A DNA stretch of 12,054 nt from a bacterium (lineage in GTDB: Bacteria > SZUA-182 > DTGQ01): NCBI GenBank assembly GCA_023512255.1, contig JAILZY010000101.1, forward strand, positions 1 through 12,054, read 5' to 3'. Under the pieces are notes generated by a model. It did not search any database. It was not told where the DNA came from and saw only the letters and a program-made list of their open reading frames with translations. Positions 716-9,170 of the stretch are shown here, piece after piece. The position numbers and the translations under genes are program-made. Position 1 is the first letter of the stretch. Each line of letters starts with the position of its first letter.

Positions 716-3694
716 CTATTGATTTTCAGTTCCCAGCGCAGATTGAATCTGATCCAAAAGGTCCCGCGCTGGCTGATAATCTGGCTTGACCCGCAGAGCC
801 TGCTGCAAATACTCTATACTTCGAGCCAGGTCTTGCTTCCAGAGGTAACAGTTAGCTAGGTGAAAGTAAGTTACTGGATTGTTTGGGTTTTTCTGAATCG
901 CCTGGCTATATTCAGTAATAGCCAGATCAAATTTCTGCTGTTTGAAAAAGGTGAAACCTAAATTTATATGGGCAGCTTCATGAGTCGGGTCGATAGCCAG
1001 AATCCGTTTGCATTCCTCTACTCCCAGCTCAGTTTCTCCAATGGCAAAGTAGAGCAGACTAAGTTTAAGCCGAGCATTAAGGTGATTAGCATCTTTGGCC
1101 AGAATATGTTTAAAGATGCTAATCGCCTGGCTGCTGTTTCCCTGATCCTGATAGGCGACTGCCAACTGAAATAGGGTATCGATATTGTCCGGATCAAGTT
1201 TTAGGGCAGACTGATAGGCTTCAATGGCCTGACTTAATTTCTGTTGATTATGGAAGGCAAGCCCTAGGCTGAAATAGGCCTTATGATTTCGGGGATCAAG
1301 CTCAAGGCATCTTTGGAATGATTGAATCGCCTGGTCTGAATCGTTAAGCTGAGAGTAGACCAGGCCAAGATTGTAGAAAATCTCAGATGACCCAGGCTCT
1401 AATTGCCGGGCTTTCTGAAACTGCTCAAGCGCCTGCTGGTAGTCTTCCTCTTTGAGGGAGATTATGCCCAGGGAATTGTACACCTTGGCCATGTTCGGGT
1501 CAATTTCCTGAACCCGACCGATTTCCTGCCTGGCCAGATCATATTCTCCCTTTTGAATGTGAATATCTACCAGGCTCAGCAGGGTATCGGCTCGCCGCGA
1601 ATCGAGTTTTAAAGCCTGGCAAATCCTTTTTTCCGCCTCATCAATCGCCCCTTGAGCAAGATAAATGGCCCCTAGGGTATTATAGACATTCACGTTCTGG
1701 GGATCTAGCTCAAGCGCTTTCTCCGCATACTGAAGGGCGGTCGCGTAGTCCTTTTTAGCCAGATATACATTAGCCAGACCCCCCAGAGCCTCAATATGCT
1801 TGGGCTCTCTCTTGAGCGCCTGGCCGAAGGCCTCAATAGCCCGGTCATACTCGCCGCTGTAGCTATAGAGAACGCCCAGGTTCTGATAGATTTCTACAGA
1901 CTCAGGGTCAAGTTTCAGGGCTTTTTCAACCTGCTCGAAGGCCTTCTCTTTCTGGCCAAGTTTCAGATACACTCCTCCCAGGTTTACGTAGCCATTCAGA
2001 TAAGCCGGATCAAGACGAATACATTCTAAAAATTCATCCCGCGCCTTTTCAAACCGTCCAATTTTATTATAGATAAATCCCACCATAAAGTGGGCAAAGA
2101 CATCTTGGGGATCAACCTCAAGGCTTTTTTGAAAATAGCCGATGGCCTGCTCGTATTCATGGCGTAGGTAATGATAGGCAGCCACATTGAAGTAGTTTAG
2201 AACCATAACCATATCCTTGGGATCTGGATAGTTTCCGCTTTCTCCACCGGCCTCTTCCTTCACCGTTGCTGTCCACAGGTATCCTAGCCGCTCAAGCCTC
2301 TGCCGGGTATCATCGTCCATGACCATTAGGTTGGCTTTTTTTCGGACGTTTCCTGCTGAATAGCGGTTTTTCATTTCGGCCAGGAGTTTTTCCATAACCG
2401 CCACCTGATCCTGTCGGTAGGGGAAAAGGTTAGTGAGTTCCCGAGGATCATCCGTAAGATGATAGAGCTCGGGTTTGGGGGCTTTGATGTACTTCCACTC
2501 TGAGGTTCTCACTCCCAGCAGAGGGCTCCAGCGATGGTTGTAAAAAGGAAAATAGGTTTCACAGTAGATCGCCTCACTATCTGCCCCTACTAAATAGTCT
2601 CCCGAAGAAGAAGAGGCCTGAGCTATAGAGGCAGGTGGTCTAATCAGTGGACAGAGAGATCTACCCTGCATTTTCGAATCCATGAGGCGAATTCCGGCCA
2701 GATCAAGAATGGTGGGAGCAATGTCCGCGCTGCTAACCTGACTACTAAGGCTTGCGGCAGCCGGAATCTTTCCCGGATAGCGGATAATAAGAGGAACATG
2801 AATGGTGCTATCATAAATAAAAACCGAATGACTCGGCTCGCCGTGCTCTCCGAGGCTTTCGCCATGATCGGCTGTAAAGCAGATTATGGTCTGATCGAAA
2901 AGGCCAAGCTCTTTTATCCTCTGAAATAGTCTGCCCAGACAGTCATCGGTATAGACGATTTCCCGATCATAGCAGAAGGCCAGATTAGCCGGATCATCGC
3001 AGACAGACTGCATTCCTCCAAGGTAAGACTCAGGGGGCCGATAGGGTGCATGGGGATCAAAGCAGTGAATGAACAGGAAAAATGGGCCAGGCTGTTTATT
3101 ATTCAGCCATTTGGTGGCCGCTTCAATAACCTCCTCGGCTCGCCGCTCTTCGAACAATAGATCTGATTTTTCTCCATTTGAGGCCATCTGGTCATCATAG
3201 AGATCAAACCCCTGATCCAGGCCAAAGCGAGAGTCAAGCACAAAGGCCCCTACAAAAGCTGCGGTCTGATAGCCGTTTTTTTTCAAAATCTCGGCCAGAG
3301 TCAAGCTTTCTTCACCGAGCCGAAAGGTCCCATTGTCCCGCACCCCATGGCCGAGAGGGTATTGTCCGGTCATTATGGTAGCGTGACTAGGCAGGGTGAT
3401 CGGAACCGGCGTATAACATGAGGCAAAGCGCACACCTTCTTTGGCCAGCTGATCGATATGAGGGGTCGAAATTCCCTGATATCCATAGCAGCCAAGATGA
3501 TCGGCTCGCAGGGTATCAATTGAGATCAAAAGAATATTGGGAAGTATCCGAGGCCTGCTTTCTCCACCACTTTTTAGCATATTCCTGCCAACCGCTGGCT
3601 TCTTTGGCCAGCAGCCGGCGCTCAAGGCGGCAATGAATATCAAGATAACAGCCAAAATGCTAGTTGCTTGTTTGGTAGACCGAGCCACGTGCAT
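716..3694 (-). CDS. Sulfatase-like (alkaline phosphatase superfamily) lipoprotein fused to 14 TPR repeats
   Basis: A 992-aa protein. Start ATG at 3694 has AAGGAG (3706-3701) 6 bp upstream. Residues 12-28 form a lipoprotein-type signal ending in LSAGC, with C28 the likely lipidated residue. Residues 51-480 are a sulfatase/alkaline-phosphatase-superfamily hydrolase: NILLISIDTLRADHLG with metal-binding-type D60, TLPSHATIMTG around residue 100, DPHAPY (213-218), TADHGESLGEHG (274-285; D276, H277), and the C-terminal ELYHLTDDPRELTNL and RLERLGYL motifs of the family. Residue T100 replaces the Cys/Ser that becomes formylglycine in true sulfatases, so a Thr-nucleophile phospho- or alkyl-ester hydrolase/transferase is more likely than a sulfatase (inference). 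Residues 499-974 are 14 uninterrupted 34-residue TPRs, a protein-binding scaffold, with an 18-residue cap. Substrate unknown. The gene is monocistronic and divergent from the 4368 gene. Confidence 0.9.
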   Translation of the reverse strand: MHVARSTKQATSILAVILIFIAALSAGCWPKKPAVGRNMLKSGGESRPRILPNILLISIDTLRADHLGCYGYQGISTPHIDQLAKEGVRFASCYTPVPITLPSHATIMTGQYPLGHGVRDNGTFRLGEESLTLAEILKKNGYQTAAFVGAFVLDSRFGLDQGFDLYDDQMASNGEKSDLLFEERRAEEVIEAATKWLNNKQPGPFFLFIHCFDPHAPYRPPESYLGGMQSVCDDPANLAFCYDREIVYTDDCLGRLFQRIKELGLFDQTIICFTADHGESLGEHGEPSHSVFIYDSTIHVPLIIRYPGKIPAAASLSSQVSSADIAPTILDLAGIRLMDSKMQGRSLCPLIRPPASIAQASSSSGDYLVGADSEAIYCETYFPFYNHRWSPLLGVRTSEWKYIKAPKPELYHLTDDPRELTNLFPYRQDQVAVMEKLLAEMKNRYSAGNVRKKANLMVMDDDTRQRLERLGYLWTATVKEEAGGESGNYPDPKDMVMVLNYFNVAAYHYLRHEYEQAIGYFQKSLEVDPQDVFAHFMVGFIYNKIGRFEKARDEFLECIRLDPAYLNGYVNLGGVYLKLGQKEKAFEQVEKALKLDPESVEIYQNLGVLYSYSGEYDRAIEAFGQALKREPKHIEALGGLANVYLAKKDYATALQYAEKALELDPQNVNVYNTLGAIYLAQGAIDEAEKRICQALKLDSRRADTLLSLVDIHIQKGEYDLARQEIGRVQEIDPNMAKVYNSLGIISLKEEDYQQALEQFQKARQLEPGSSEIFYNLGLVYSQLNDSDQAIQSFQRCLELDPRNHKAYFSLGLAFHNQQKLSQAIEAYQSALKLDPDNIDTLFQLAVAYQDQGNSSQAISIFKHILAKDANHLNARLKLSLLYFAIGETELGVEECKRILAIDPTHEAAHINLGFTFFKQQKFDLAITEYSQAIQKNPNNPVTYFHLANCYLWKQDLARSIEYLQQALRVKPDYQPARDLLDQIQSALGTENQ

Positions 3695-4367: not shown

Positions 4368-7364
4368 ATGAGAAAGTTTAATAGGGCTATTCTCCTGAGA
4401 CTAAAAGAACTCTATTTTACCACGTGGTTACTCTTTGTGGTAGTAGCCATCTTTCTCTCAGGTCCGCTTTTTTGCTTTACCCTTCCACGGCCTGCTTACG
4501 GCTGGGTATGGAACGACGTTCTTGTCAGCGGCGGGGCTCTTGATCAGATTCATCCTCAGGTTGCCTATGCTGGAGGGGGAAATCTGATGATTGTCTGGGA
4601 GAATCGTGACAGCGGATCAGGCGATATCTATGGTCTTATCCAGGCTGGTGGCCAGTCAGGCTCCCCTTTTCCCATCTGCACTGCTCAAGGAGATCAAAGA
4701 TATCCGCAAGTGGTGTGGAACGGGAGCAATTATTTTGTCGTCTGGGAAGATACCCGCGGCGGCAATGCTGATATTTATGGCAGCAGGGTAAGTGTTACAG
4801 GCACTATGGGCACAGTCTTAGACAATCTCCCCTCGTCGTCAGGGGGAGGGGTAGGCGGTGTTCCCCTTTGCTCGGCCAGTGGAGATCAGCTACAGCCCTC
4901 CTTGGTCTGGAACAGCCGGGATCGGCAATATCTGATTGTTTGGCAGGATCATCGAATCGAGCCAGCTAAAATTTATGGCCTGAGGCTAACCGAGGGGATG
5001 CAGTCTCTCGATGGTCCGGCTTCAAGTGGCGGTCTGCTCATTGCTCGAAGCGGTGGAACAAATCCTTCTGTGGCCTGGAATGGAGCCAACTATCTGGTGG
5101 TTTGGGAATACCAGACCAGCGCATCTTCCTGCGATATCTACGGTGGTCGGGTATCAAGCTCTGGACAGGTGATAGATGATGCGCCTCTCCTTATTTCAGG
5201 CGGTGAGGGGCTGCGATACAATCCAGCGGTTGCTTCTGATGGCCGGGATTTTTTGGTCATCTGGGACATTCACCCACAGAATGAATATTCTGATGTAGCT
5301 GGTATTCTGGTTTCGGCCGATGGACTTCCTGACTCACGGGGTGAGTTTCCAATCGCTGAGTATCAGTGGAACCAGTTGAATCCTTCAGTTATCTGGTGTG
5401 AAAATCACTACCTAGTAGCCTGGAAGGATACCAGGAACGGGAAGGTTGATATTTACTTTGTGCGGCTCAGCAGCGCCGGCAGTTTCCTAGATAGTCAGAC
5501 CAAATTTTCTGCTATTAATGCCTGCATCGTAGGCTCATCACTCTTGGATTCTCCTGTGGCCATAGCCCGAAGAACCGATTCTGGAGAATATGTAATCATC
5601 TGGGAGGAGGTCGGCTCTCCTCCTACCCGCTCGAATACCTTTGACATCTATTCCCAGCGCTATCAGGCCACAGCTCCTCCGGTTCTCTCCTGGACAGGAG
5701 AAGCTAACTACCAAAACAGCGGGGTCAATCCAGCCATTGGGCCAGCCGGGACCTCCTTTGAATTTCGGGTAAAATACTCTAGTCTCGGCAATCTCCCACC
5801 CCAAAAGGCTCAAGTTTGGATCGATCAGGATGATGACGGCGTATATTCCATTAATCCGGCCAATTCGCTCATGGATAAAATCATCAACCTGACTCCTGGG
5901 CCAGGAAATAACTACATCCAGGGAGTTATCTACAAGGCCACAACCACGCTGGAGTTTGCCGGAGATGGCAAACTGAACTACCGCTTTGTATTCAGCGACG
6001 GAACGAATGAAGCCACGGGAGAGCCAGCCAAAAGTCACCAGATTCTGGTAGGAAATAGCCCTGCCTCTCTTGAGTGGATGGGCACCGATGGTTATGAATC
6101 AGACGGAGTAAACCCAAACAGCGCTCAGGGGGGTACAACCTTTACCTTTATGGTCCGCTACCGAGACCTAGAGAATGATCCGCCCTCGGTGGCTGAGGTA
6201 TGGGTTGATTTAAACCGCAACAATAACTACGATCAGGACGAAAAATTTCCCATGCAGGCTGTAAATACCCAAAGTTTTTCCGCTGGCCGGGGATATCAAA
6301 AGTCGATCTCCTGCCTCTACCTGCCTGATTCAACCACCAGTGCCGGAGCCATCAATATCAAGTATCGGTTCAATTTCACTAGTGGCCATACGCCGATTGG
6401 GGGAGAGCCCTCATCGGATCACTTTTTCTCTTTGACCCCGTATCGGTCAGTGCCTGTTCTCTCCTGGGTCAGTGAGGCTGGATTTGTTCAGGGGGTTCGC
6501 CTAAAAGGGAGCGAAGCAGGGGGGGGAAGTTATGAGTTTCAAGTCTGCTATCAAGATCAGGACAATGATCCTGCGCTCATCCGAGAGGTCTGGATTGACG
6601 AGAACGCGGACGGCACTTTCAGCCAGGAAGAAAAACATATCATGGAGGAGCTCATCCCGTCTGATACAGTCGTCTCCGATGGCAAGATCTATCGTCTTCT
6701 GATTGATCTTTCCTCTTCAGCAGTCGGAGATGAGATCCGTTATCGGTTCGTCTTCTCGGACGGTAAAAATATCGCTACCGGCGAGCCGTTTCTTACCCTG
6801 GCCCAGCTACCAGCCTCATTGAGCGTATACCTGACCTGGACCGGACAGCCGGGATATACCCAGGATGGGGTGAACCCGGATAGTGGGCCAGCCCAATCCT
6901 TGTTTCAGTTTCAAGTAAGGTATGTCAATGAGCATGATTTTCCTCCAAGGATTAAAAAACTCTGGATAGACCTAAACAATGACGGTCAATACCAGGGGGG
7001 CGAACTCTATGACCTGGAAGAGCTTGATCCACTCGATATGGATTATGGTGATGGCAAAATCTATACAAAATCAGTATCCATAACGCCTCAGATCACGCTG
7101 CCGGCCAATTTGAACTACCGATTTATTTTCCAAGACATTTATTCTGAAGAGGCGGCCGGTGAGCCAGCCCAAGGGTTTCGAACTGTCTTGATCCTAGCCC
7201 CAACAGATGCGCAGCCCGATCCCAACACCACAAACCAGCAACCGCAGGATCCTAATCGCCCCACCAACGCAGGGGATGTCCCTCCACCCTCTTCCTCTAA
7301 TGATGTTCCCCGTGAGCTTAAATCCACTCAGGGAGGATGCTTCATCCGGTCTCTTCTTTTTTAA
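4368..7364 (+). CDS. Exported protein: seven propeller-type repeats, four Ig-like modules, GGCFI C-terminus
   Basis: A 998-aa exported protein of unknown function. Residues 1-45 form a long signal with hydrophobic core 19-37 and a possible cut after AYG (43-45). The upstream Shine-Dalgarno is weak (AGAAAGA region), so the start rests on the signal peptide. Residues 62-432 hold seven repeats of the type PxVxWNGxxYLVVWxDxR...DIYGxRVS (near 62, 112, 176, 232, 285, 338, 395), consistent with a seven-bladed beta-propeller. Residues 438-940 hold four modules of about 125 residues, each opening with LxWxGxxGY.xxGVNP and closing with NYRFxFxD...GEPA. Each carries an acidic DxNxDG-type loop (486, 614, 744, 868) resembling EF-hand/dockerin calcium loops. 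A Pro/Asn-rich linker (944-980) precedes GGCFI (989-993), after which the protein ends within five residues. It is likely a surface or secreted binding protein; ligand unknown. Confidence 0.88.
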   Translation: MRKFNRAILLRLKELYFTTWLLFVVVAIFLSGPLFCFTLPRPAYGWVWNDVLVSGGALDQIHPQVAYAGGGNLMIVWENRDSGSGDIYGLIQAGGQSGSPFPICTAQGDQRYPQVVWNGSNYFVVWEDTRGGNADIYGSRVSVTGTMGTVLDNLPSSSGGGVGGVPLCSASGDQLQPSLVWNSRDRQYLIVWQDHRIEPAKIYGLRLTEGMQSLDGPASSGGLLIARSGGTNPSVAWNGANYLVVWEYQTSASSCDIYGGRVSSSGQVIDDAPLLISGGEGLRYNPAVASDGRDFLVIWDIHPQNEYSDVAGILVSADGLPDSRGEFPIAEYQWNQLNPSVIWCENHYLVAWKDTRNGKVDIYFVRLSSAGSFLDSQTKFSAINACIVGSSLLDSPVAIARRTDSGEYVIIWEEVGSPPTRSNTFDIYSQRYQATAPPVLSWTGEANYQNSGVNPAIGPAGTSFEFRVKYSSLGNLPPQKAQVWIDQDDDGVYSINPANSLMDKIINLTPGPGNNYIQGVIYKATTTLEFAGDGKLNYRFVFSDGTNEATGEPAKSHQILVGNSPASLEWMGTDGYESDGVNPNSAQGGTTFTFMVRYRDLENDPPSVAEVWVDLNRNNNYDQDEKFPMQAVNTQSFSAGRGYQKSISCLYLPDSTTSAGAINIKYRFNFTSGHTPIGGEPSSDHFFSLTPYRSVPVLSWVSEAGFVQGVRLKGSEAGGGSYEFQVCYQDQDNDPALIREVWIDENADGTFSQEEKHIMEELIPSDTVVSDGKIYRLLIDLSSSAVGDEIRYRFVFSDGKNIATGEPFLTLAQLPASLSVYLTWTGQPGYTQDGVNPDSGPAQSLFQFQVRYVNEHDFPPRIKKLWIDLNNDGQYQGGELYDLEELDPLDMDYGDGKIYTKSVSITPQITLPANLNYRFIFQDIYSEEAAGEPAQGFRTVLILAPTDAQPDPNTTNQQPQDPNRPTNAGDVPPPSSSNDVPRELKSTQGGCFIRSLLF

Positions 7365-7544
7365 GCTTCACATACTAGAAACTCATCCTAGAAGCTTATA
7401 AGCTCTTATTTTGCAGCTTTTATGGCCAAGAAAGCTCATCCAGCCAAGCAAAAATTCCACAAAAGTCATAAAGAGTGTAAATTATACCCTTGAAGTCATA
7501 GATATTTCTACCTTCTGGCGGTTTCTATCCCCCTGGGCGGCTAG

Positions 7545-7920: not shown

Positions 7921-7936
7921 GGAGGAAGTATAAATT

Positions 7937-9109
7937 ATGCTTCAAAAACCTTATCTTTCAGGAAAGCCGCAGAAAATAAAAAAAAGCTGGCTCTTTCTTC
8001 TCTTACTTACCTTGGTGCTCGGCCCAATAACCCGAATCGAGTATGCTCATGGTTATTATTCTGCATCTGTCAATTCATATTATTATCAACCAGGAACTTC
8101 TGGATATTATAATCCTACCCCTGCTTACTCAACGGGCTACAACGGCTATTCTTATCTCTACAACAGCAGCTCCTTGGCTCCATCATCTTATTATTACTCC
8201 TCGAACACCTCTGGTTATGCCTCTAGCCCGAGTACGGCCTCAACAAATTCTTCTTATTATTACCGGAGCAATACCAGCCCATTGACTACGATCGGAGCAG
8301 GTAGCTATACCGCTCAGTCTTCCTTTTACTATCCAAGCTCTCAAGCTCAAAGCTCGTATTATTCTCCTTCCTATACGTCCGGTGCTGCCCAGGGGGGGTA
8401 TTACTCCGCCGGTGGATCATTAGGCTACAGCACCTCGGCTAATTCTTTCTATGCTGGTGGCTCTTATTCTGCTCCTGGAGCAGCTAATACCGCCTACTAT
8501 TATCCAGCAAGCTCATATACAGCCAACTCGACTTATCCTGCAAGCACTTACTATTATCGGGGCCCATACTCTGCTGCTAGCTCAAGCACCTATTACCCTG
8601 CGGCTCAAACCTATTATCCGGCGGCCACCACTTATACTACTGCGGCCACCTCTGATATTAGTGGCTCATACCAGGGCAGATGGGTAAGAAACTATAGTGC
8701 CACCGGAGCGCCAACCTCAGGCCGGACCACGAATTCTTCAATGAGATCAAGCAACAGTACCTCCACCAGCGGCATGGCCAGCACCTGCGGCGGTGGCGGC
8801 GGTGGCGGCGGAGCGAGCTTTCAGCCAATCACCCTAGAATTGAGCCAGATTGCAGCCACAGTCAACGGTATCGTAACCTTCTTTTCCGACAACACGGCTG
8901 TAAAAACGATTCCCGTAAACGGGACGATTGAGAATGGCAATATTCTCAACCTGAGCGGCACAACCGCAGGCAGCCTCTCTGATCCTATTCTCTATGGCAT
9001 AAAGATTACGGCTACGGTTCAGGGTGGCTCTCTACAGGGGGCCTATACCCTGACTAACACAGCCACTAACACTACGATCGAATTAGGCACCTTTACAGCC
9101 AGCAAGTAA
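7937..9109 (+). CDS. Exported tyrosine-rich low-complexity protein with C-terminal beta-rich domain
   Basis: A 390-aa protein I do not recognise. The ATG is preceded by a strong GGAGGA (7921-7926, spacing 10). The signal peptide has a basic n-region (KPQKIKK), a Leu-rich core (residues 18-29) and a likely cut after AHG (37-39). Residues 40-235 are low complexity, built of Tyr, Ser, Ala, Gly, Thr, Pro and Asn with frequent YY and YYY clusters. About 45 tyrosines lie in residues 36-233, and this part is almost without charge. A G-x-Y-x-G-x-W strand (243-249) is followed by a Ser/Thr-rich insert, one Cys (284) and eight glycines (285-292). Beta-strand-like sequence (295-388) then ends in GxYTLT...LGTFTASK. 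The pattern recalls small lipocalin-like or beta-barrel domains of secreted proteins. Inference: surface, sheath or adhesive protein; tyrosine cross-linking is speculative. It forms a single-gene unit with its own leader. Confidence 0.85.
   Translation: MLQKPYLSGKPQKIKKSWLFLLLLTLVLGPITRIEYAHGYYSASVNSYYYQPGTSGYYNPTPAYSTGYNGYSYLYNSSSLAPSSYYYSSNTSGYASSPSTASTNSSYYYRSNTSPLTTIGAGSYTAQSSFYYPSSQAQSSYYSPSYTSGAAQGGYYSAGGSLGYSTSANSFYAGGSYSAPGAANTAYYYPASSYTANSTYPASTYYYRGPYSAASSSTYYPAAQTYYPAATTYTTAATSDISGSYQGRWVRNYSATGAPTSGRTTNSSMRSSNSTSTSGMASTCGGGGGGGGASFQPITLELSQIAATVNGIVTFFSDNTAVKTIPVNGTIENGNILNLSGTTAGSLSDPILYGIKITATVQGGSLQGAYTLTNTATNTTIELGTFTASK
8789..8812 (+). repeat. GGN triplet tract encoding eight glycines
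   Basis: Eight consecutive Gly codons in a GGC-GGT-GGC rhythm form a 9-bp-period tandem tract inside the Tyr-rich protein gene, directly after the codon of its only Cys. Length changes by whole codons would keep the frame. It probably acts as a flexible linker. Confidence 0.6.
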
Positions 9110-9132: not shown

Positions 9133-9170
9133 CCAGGCAATGTGCCGCCTCAAAACGACATATTGCCTGG
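9133..9170. terminator. Convergent terminator-type hairpin
   Basis: CCAGGCAAT (9133-9141) and ATTGCCTGG (9162-9170) are perfect 9-bp inverted repeats with a 20-base loop, placed between the convergent 7937 and recN genes. On the minus strand the stem is followed by TTTT (9132-9129), as expected for recN termination. The plus-strand side lacks a T-run. It is 23 bp after the stop of the Tyr-rich gene and about 100 bp after the recN stop. Confidence 0.55.

Follow-up and report, generated by a model that had tools for sequence, protein, structure and literature searches.

A tyrosine-rich exported protein with a predicted C-terminal β-barrel belongs to a lineage-specific paralogous family and is probably structural

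The window, that is the whole stretch of 12,054 nucleotides analysed here, carries a gene encoding a Tyr-rich exported protein of 390 residues, the features of which are collected in Table 1. The first-pass annotation of this DNA had given the gene as 7937–8635; its start was right, but this interval covers residues 1–233 only, and the open reading frame continues to 9109. The sequence TGGAGGAAGTA at the Shine-Dalgarno-like site is also kept in G001, a genome of the same genus as the window genome (G000). Upstream lie the gene of a GEVED protein and that of a sulfatase-TPR protein pointing away, and this gene trio is common to the window, to G001 and to G002, a genome of the same family. The GEVED protein ends in QGGCFIRSLLF and its G001 and G002 counterparts in SQGGCFIRSLL and PQCGCFISSLL, an end that resembles a Cys-containing C-terminal tail for sorting or anchoring. 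The gap between the GEVED and Tyr-rich genes (572 bp) contains a 30-bp block, TAAATTATACCCTTGAAGTCATAGATATTT (7478–7507), near-identical in G001; it was not found when searched for upstream of the paralogues described below. Just 3' of the Tyr-rich gene, between convergent genes, a 9-bp perfect inverted repeat without a T run, CCAGGCAAT...ATTGCCTGG, occupies positions 9133–9170. In G001 the gene following the Tyr-rich orthologue encodes a barrel-less SSLYGG/GAGLYGG repeat protein (L005, 9398–10249); the corresponding position in the window is empty and the RecN gene comes next. Elsewhere in the window, at positions 457–516, an AT-rich unit of 15 bp is repeated in tandem about four times. Rfam searches of the gene, its leader and 17 family neighbourhoods returned tRNAs only, and no riboswitch.

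Table 1. Coordinates of the Tyr-rich gene, its parts and conserved neighbours, and of the sigma54-type sites of related genes (window positions unless another locus is named).
Feature	Position	Strand	Basis
Whole gene, Tyr-rich exported protein with predicted C-terminal β-barrel, 390 aa	7937..9109	+	ORF, orthologues, dN/dS
Shine-Dalgarno-like GGAGG, 11 nt 5' of ATG	7921..7925	+	Sequence reading
Signal peptide, residues 1–39, predicted cleavage YAHG/YYS	7937..8053	+	Sequence, paralogue pattern, model helix
Tyr-rich low-complexity region, residues 40–236, predicted disordered	8054..8644	+	Composition, shuffles, pLDDT
Predicted C-terminal 8-stranded antiparallel β-barrel, residues 237–390, first strand GSYQGRW (GxWxGxW-type)	8645..9106	+	AlphaFold2, structure matches, family profile
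Ser/Gly-rich disordered loop, strands 1–2, residues 255–291	8699..8809	+	pLDDT <50; gap in other paralogues
Exported β-propeller-like/GEVED-domain protein, 998 aa, conserved neighbour	4368..7364	+	Pfam GEVED 1.8e-12; adjoins in G001, G002
Sulfatase + TPR protein, 992 aa, divergent conserved neighbour	716..3694	-	Pfam Sulfatase 2e-54, TPR; same position in G001, G002
CTGGTATCNNNNTTGCT site upstream of GLYGG gene	L104 9335-9351	-	
CTGGTATCNNNNTTGCT site upstream of GLYGG gene	L104 13149-13165	-	
CTGGTATCNNNNTTGCT site upstream of GLYGG gene	L106 8526-8542	-	
CTGGTATCNNNNTTGCT site upstream of GLYGG gene	L108 6504-6520	+	

The N-terminus of the protein consists of a Lys-rich start, the segment WLFLLLLTLVLG and a predicted cleavage site that falls directly before an aromatic pair, and residues 15–28 form a helix in the AlphaFold2 model. 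A small-x-small site ahead of YY recurs in most family members, as judged by inspection. The export assigned at first reading is supported by this signal peptide, the pattern of which is repeated in the paralogues. A Pfam match to T_cell_tran_alt (residues 16–71, around the signal peptide; E 5e-5, below the cut-off) was set aside as a composition match.

The following 197 residues (40–236) comprise 44 Tyr, 47 Ser, 27 Ala, 22 Thr, 17 Gly, 14 Pro and 10 Asn, and only two charged residues, both Arg. When judged against composition-preserving shuffles, the tyrosines are clustered: there are 12 runs of two or more Tyr (shuffle mean 7.5, p=0.013), 29 Tyr lie inside such runs (compare with 17.1, p=0.0017), and YYY occurs five times (compare with 1.6, p=0.010). 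Counts and shuffles therefore agree with the Tyr clusters and the near-uncharged Y/S/A/G/T/P/N make-up first noticed in this protein. In the AlphaFold2 model of the whole protein the pLDDT of this stretch is mostly 25–35, meaning that it is predicted to be disordered. FUS-type low-complexity domains are likewise long, near-uncharged, Ser/Gly/Tyr-rich and disordered, with spaced tyrosines; the window protein differs from them in being exported, bacterial and not RNA-binding, with Tyr pairs and triplets and little Gln.

For the C-terminal part, an AlphaFold2 run with a four-row alignment predicted eight antiparallel strands, the strand blocks being mostly at pLDDT 83–92 and the Ser/Gly loop disordered; this loop is specific to the orthologue group of the window protein. 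The model supports the β-domain mentioned in the first-pass annotation. Foldseek and VIA-align placed the shape of the predicted domain among the small up-and-down barrels (structure matches at Z 11–15), the best being a designed barrel (8ah9, Z 15.0), a quinohemoprotein amine dehydrogenase domain (14.7) and streptavidin (4jnj, 12.4). As regards a possible outer-membrane barrel, the best structural matches were soluble calycin-like or designed barrels. With the avidins (Z of about 11–12) the predicted domain has in common an eight-stranded up-and-down barrel of about 110 residues with a GxW-type first strand, but the identity is about 14–18% and no sequence family matches: the Pfam avidin profile gave nothing up to E=1 for the window protein or up to E=0.1 for 28 barrels of its family. 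A sequence search of the PDB gave no match below E 0.3, and the matches of single barrels to TamB, Bactofilin and DUF profiles, being weak and inconsistent, were rejected. Since no Foldseek E-value for the barrel lies below 0.0026 and sequence family matches are lacking, the likeness of the modelled barrel to known barrels is one of shape only and is not proof of kinship.

We looked at the conservation of the protein in the two related genomes. Its orthologues in G001 and G002 are 71% and 46% identical, respectively, and the succession of signal peptide, Tyr-rich part and β-domain, together with the neighbouring genes, is kept in these three genomes of two genera. The comparison of G000 with G001 gives a dN/dS of about 0.25 for the Tyr-rich part and about 0.04 for the barrel; both are rough values because synonymous sites are near saturation. 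In the Tyr-rich part, 36 of the 40 aligned Tyr positions are identical, compared with 80 of 141 other residues. Because the orthologues keep layout and neighbours, dN/dS is low and Tyr is retained, the open reading frame is a real translated gene under purifying selection, in which Tyr is preferentially retained.

The protein had been described as belonging to no recognised family. This stands as far as Pfam and NCBIfam are concerned, as neither gave anything above the cut-off for the window protein; however, it is not an orphan, and its barrel defines a large paralogous family. A profile of five barrels (the window protein and four relatives) found further paralogues in the same genome that were not part of it. 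In the resulting set the G-x-[WY]-x-G-x-W strand is present in all 28 paralogue barrels, and in nearly all complete paralogues a signal peptide is combined with an aromatic middle of low complexity. The 28-row profile detected at least 22 loci in the window genome, of which the window protein, itself one of the 28 rows, is the weakest at E 1.4e-18. The barrels diverge down to about 20% identity. The middle regions mostly contain 10–25% Tyr and about 6% or fewer charged residues, and the window protein has the same low-charge Tyr-rich middle; 16 of the 22 members have a middle built from G-x-Y-G repeats, e.g. GLYGGLYGLYGG. The tree separates a YY/YP-type clade, which includes the window protein, from a larger GLYGG clade, with the placement of this main split unsure as long branches meet there. 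The GLYGG repeats and PVI-type C-terminus of the larger clade are absent from the window protein, which has no G-x-Y-G repeat and ends in TASK. Several one-to-one orthologue pairs link G000 and G001, meaning that many duplications predate the separation of the two species.

Among the sampled genomes the family is confined to this lineage. G001, G002, G003 and G004 contain 26, 9, 4 and 7 family loci, respectively, and the 28-row profile found none in four other genomes of the class; outside the class, 7 of 377 genomes gave weak and mostly partial matches (E 1e-8 to 6e-4). These include GTWxGxW barrel-like domains of other phyla (L067–L073, L078) that have a similar strand pattern but are carried by lipoproteins with repeat domains or by transglutaminase-like proteins, and have no Tyr-rich or GLYGG part. 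The class is sampled by nine genomes, and because the next relatives among the sampled genomes share only the domain with it, the source bacterium seems to represent an uncultured lineage of phylum rank. Genes of the family lie dispersed between housekeeping genes, and we did not find a secretion or assembly partner shared by them.

A DNA pattern for GLYGGLYG gave 115, 98, 12, 2 and 20 sites in G000 to G004, but no site in the other genomes of the class; of 377 genomes outside it, one had the pattern. The octapeptide GLYGGYGL occurs in eight copies in six paralogues of the window genome (shuffle mean 0.09). It is GL8, the Leu member of the GX8 series derived from squid suckerin-19, in which Tyr stacking and β-sheet make GV8 a stiff gel, GL8 gives large stiff beads and not gels, and other variants do not gel (PMC6839752). 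The GX8 peptides are a physical precedent for the paralogues. Suckerins and the family thus share exported, structural-type proteins with Gly/Leu/Tyr repeats, GLYGGYGL being identical letter for letter; in contrast, suckerins are animal proteins with Ala/His-rich modules and without such a barrel, and Ala/His-rich modules alternating with Gly-rich ones were absent from the family sequences examined. We infer that the likeness is due to convergence and not ancestry. GLYGGYGX modules are absent from the window protein, where the spacing is YY/Ser/Ala/Thr.

The GLYGG repeat is a module used in several contexts, since it is found in barrel-less proteins of the window genome (C157, C22 and two in C146) and in the tail of a HYR-repeat protein. 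The C157 protein (L132, 1384–2130) has a CTQCH heme-c motif in its C-terminal part and contains a segment, SPFGLQNMYY...QVPFLQIAPLLGIAGLYNSLFP, common to several barrel members. The long HYR-like-repeat protein (C122; L144, 1–1782) has a GFYGGLYGGIFGGLYG tail (GGLYGG) and an aromatic/Trp-rich end.

Part of the GLYGG clade carries a sigma54-type motif (GG-N10-GC). The sequence CTGGTATCNNNNTTGCT occurs five times in the window genome, which has RpoN, and four of the five sites precede GLYGG family genes in the matching orientation (Table 1), although these genes are closely related and the sites are not independent; both sites in G001 are also upstream of family genes. The window gene lacks the motif: the best sigma54-like site 5' of it, AAGGCAAGCGCTTTGCT (about 7579), lacks conservation in G001 and was left out of the count.

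Taken together, these results make it probable that the window protein is an exported self-assembling structural protein of a sheath, coat or matrix, and a member of a lineage-specific paralogous family. A sheath, filament or matrix protein had been proposed at first reading; export, Tyr-richness, predicted disorder and the kept layout agree with this, while the material role itself is still a matter of inference. Three Omp85 proteins are encoded in the genome, so the cell is probably diderm. The protein would be exported by Sec and its signal peptide removed, leaving a mature chain that begins with YY. In the roughly 200 disordered residues, the Tyr pairs and triplets may act as multivalent stickers, by ring stacking and local β-sheet, with the Ser/Ala/Thr/Gly/Pro stretches as spacers between them. 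The stickers would make the protein assemble with itself, and probably with sister proteins of the GLYGG-repeat type, so that a coat, sheath or matrix forms outside the cell. The eight-stranded barrel could prevent the chain from becoming insoluble during export, and could serve to cap, dock or anchor it. Several points weigh against this reading: the suckerin match sits in the paralogues and not in the window protein, which has no GLYGG repeats; gelling is a property of GV8 only and not of GL8; the family genes are dispersed, and a shared secretion or assembly partner was not found among their neighbours; and the window gene lacks the sigma54-type motif.

Four other explanations were weighed. 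If the barrel were the working part, a calycin/avidin-like binder of a small ligand or surface glycan for which the Tyr stretch is a linker or stalk, its better conservation and its likeness in fold to ligand-binding barrels such as streptavidin would be accounted for. We consider this unlikely, since Tyr is kept far better than its neighbours, the divergent barrels have no conserved polar pocket set beyond Gly/Trp/Tyr/Asn, the aromatic low-charge middle recurs in the paralogues, and GLYGG proteins without a barrel occur. The low-charge, aromatic-rich and sticky sequence, and the large exported repeat protein encoded next door, would also fit a non-polymerising surface adhesin or coat protein, the chains of which are each anchored on their own and adhere by their Tyr tails. 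We give this reading a small probability, because so many GLYGG paralogues co-exist and because the suckerin-type repeats speak for assembly in bulk. Improbable too is a sheath or adhesive covalently cross-linked by dityrosine or DOPA. Dityrosine materials are Tyr-rich with Tyr clusters, as is this protein with its many YY and YYY, but such links require an oxidase or peroxidase, no oxidase was recognised by eye beside the family genes, and of two relatives with known origin one belongs to a cold-seep-type MAG set and the other to the Zodletone spring, which is anoxic and sulfidic. The dityrosine cross-linking evoked at first reading thus gained no support; a tyrosinase search of the genome gave no match, although this search, having no positive control, is uninformative. 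Finally, an aromatic filament or matrix in which electrons pass outside the cell by way of stacked Tyr and a heme-bearing relative would suit the anoxic habitats of relatives and the CxxCH motif ending the C157 paralogue, but is very improbable, as this motif is in only one of about 26 proteins, the window protein has a single Cys and no heme motif, and no multiheme or pilin gene was recognised beside its gene.

Beyond the structural role that we favour for the window protein, a wider proposal, to which we give somewhat less than an even chance, is that a suckerin-like multi-protein material evolved independently in this lineage. In it, exported proteins of the Gly-Leu-Tyr and Tyr-cluster types, about 25 in number, most of them barrel-tagged and some sigma54-switched, would self-assemble non-covalently and so form a coat or matrix of the cell in anoxic water.

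Self-assembling Gly/Tyr-rich proteins are known from animal materials (squid teeth, silks, eggshells). We found no described bacterial family of such make, and the open-access literature yielded no bacterial precedent for GLYGG, for Tyr-rich bacterial matrices or for suckerin-like proteins. With 22 or more versions in one genome, many of them in one-to-one cross-species orthologue pairs, the family is a natural library of material-type proteins, short and expressible, that overlaps letter for letter with an already tested peptide, GL8, and suggests an unusual cell surface built by an uncultured phylum-level lineage. Elsewhere in the window genome (C131; L113, 480–6689), four small signal-peptide proteins rich in Pro, Phe and Tyr are clustered with a member of the barrel family and another sulfatase-TPR protein, of 1007 aa.
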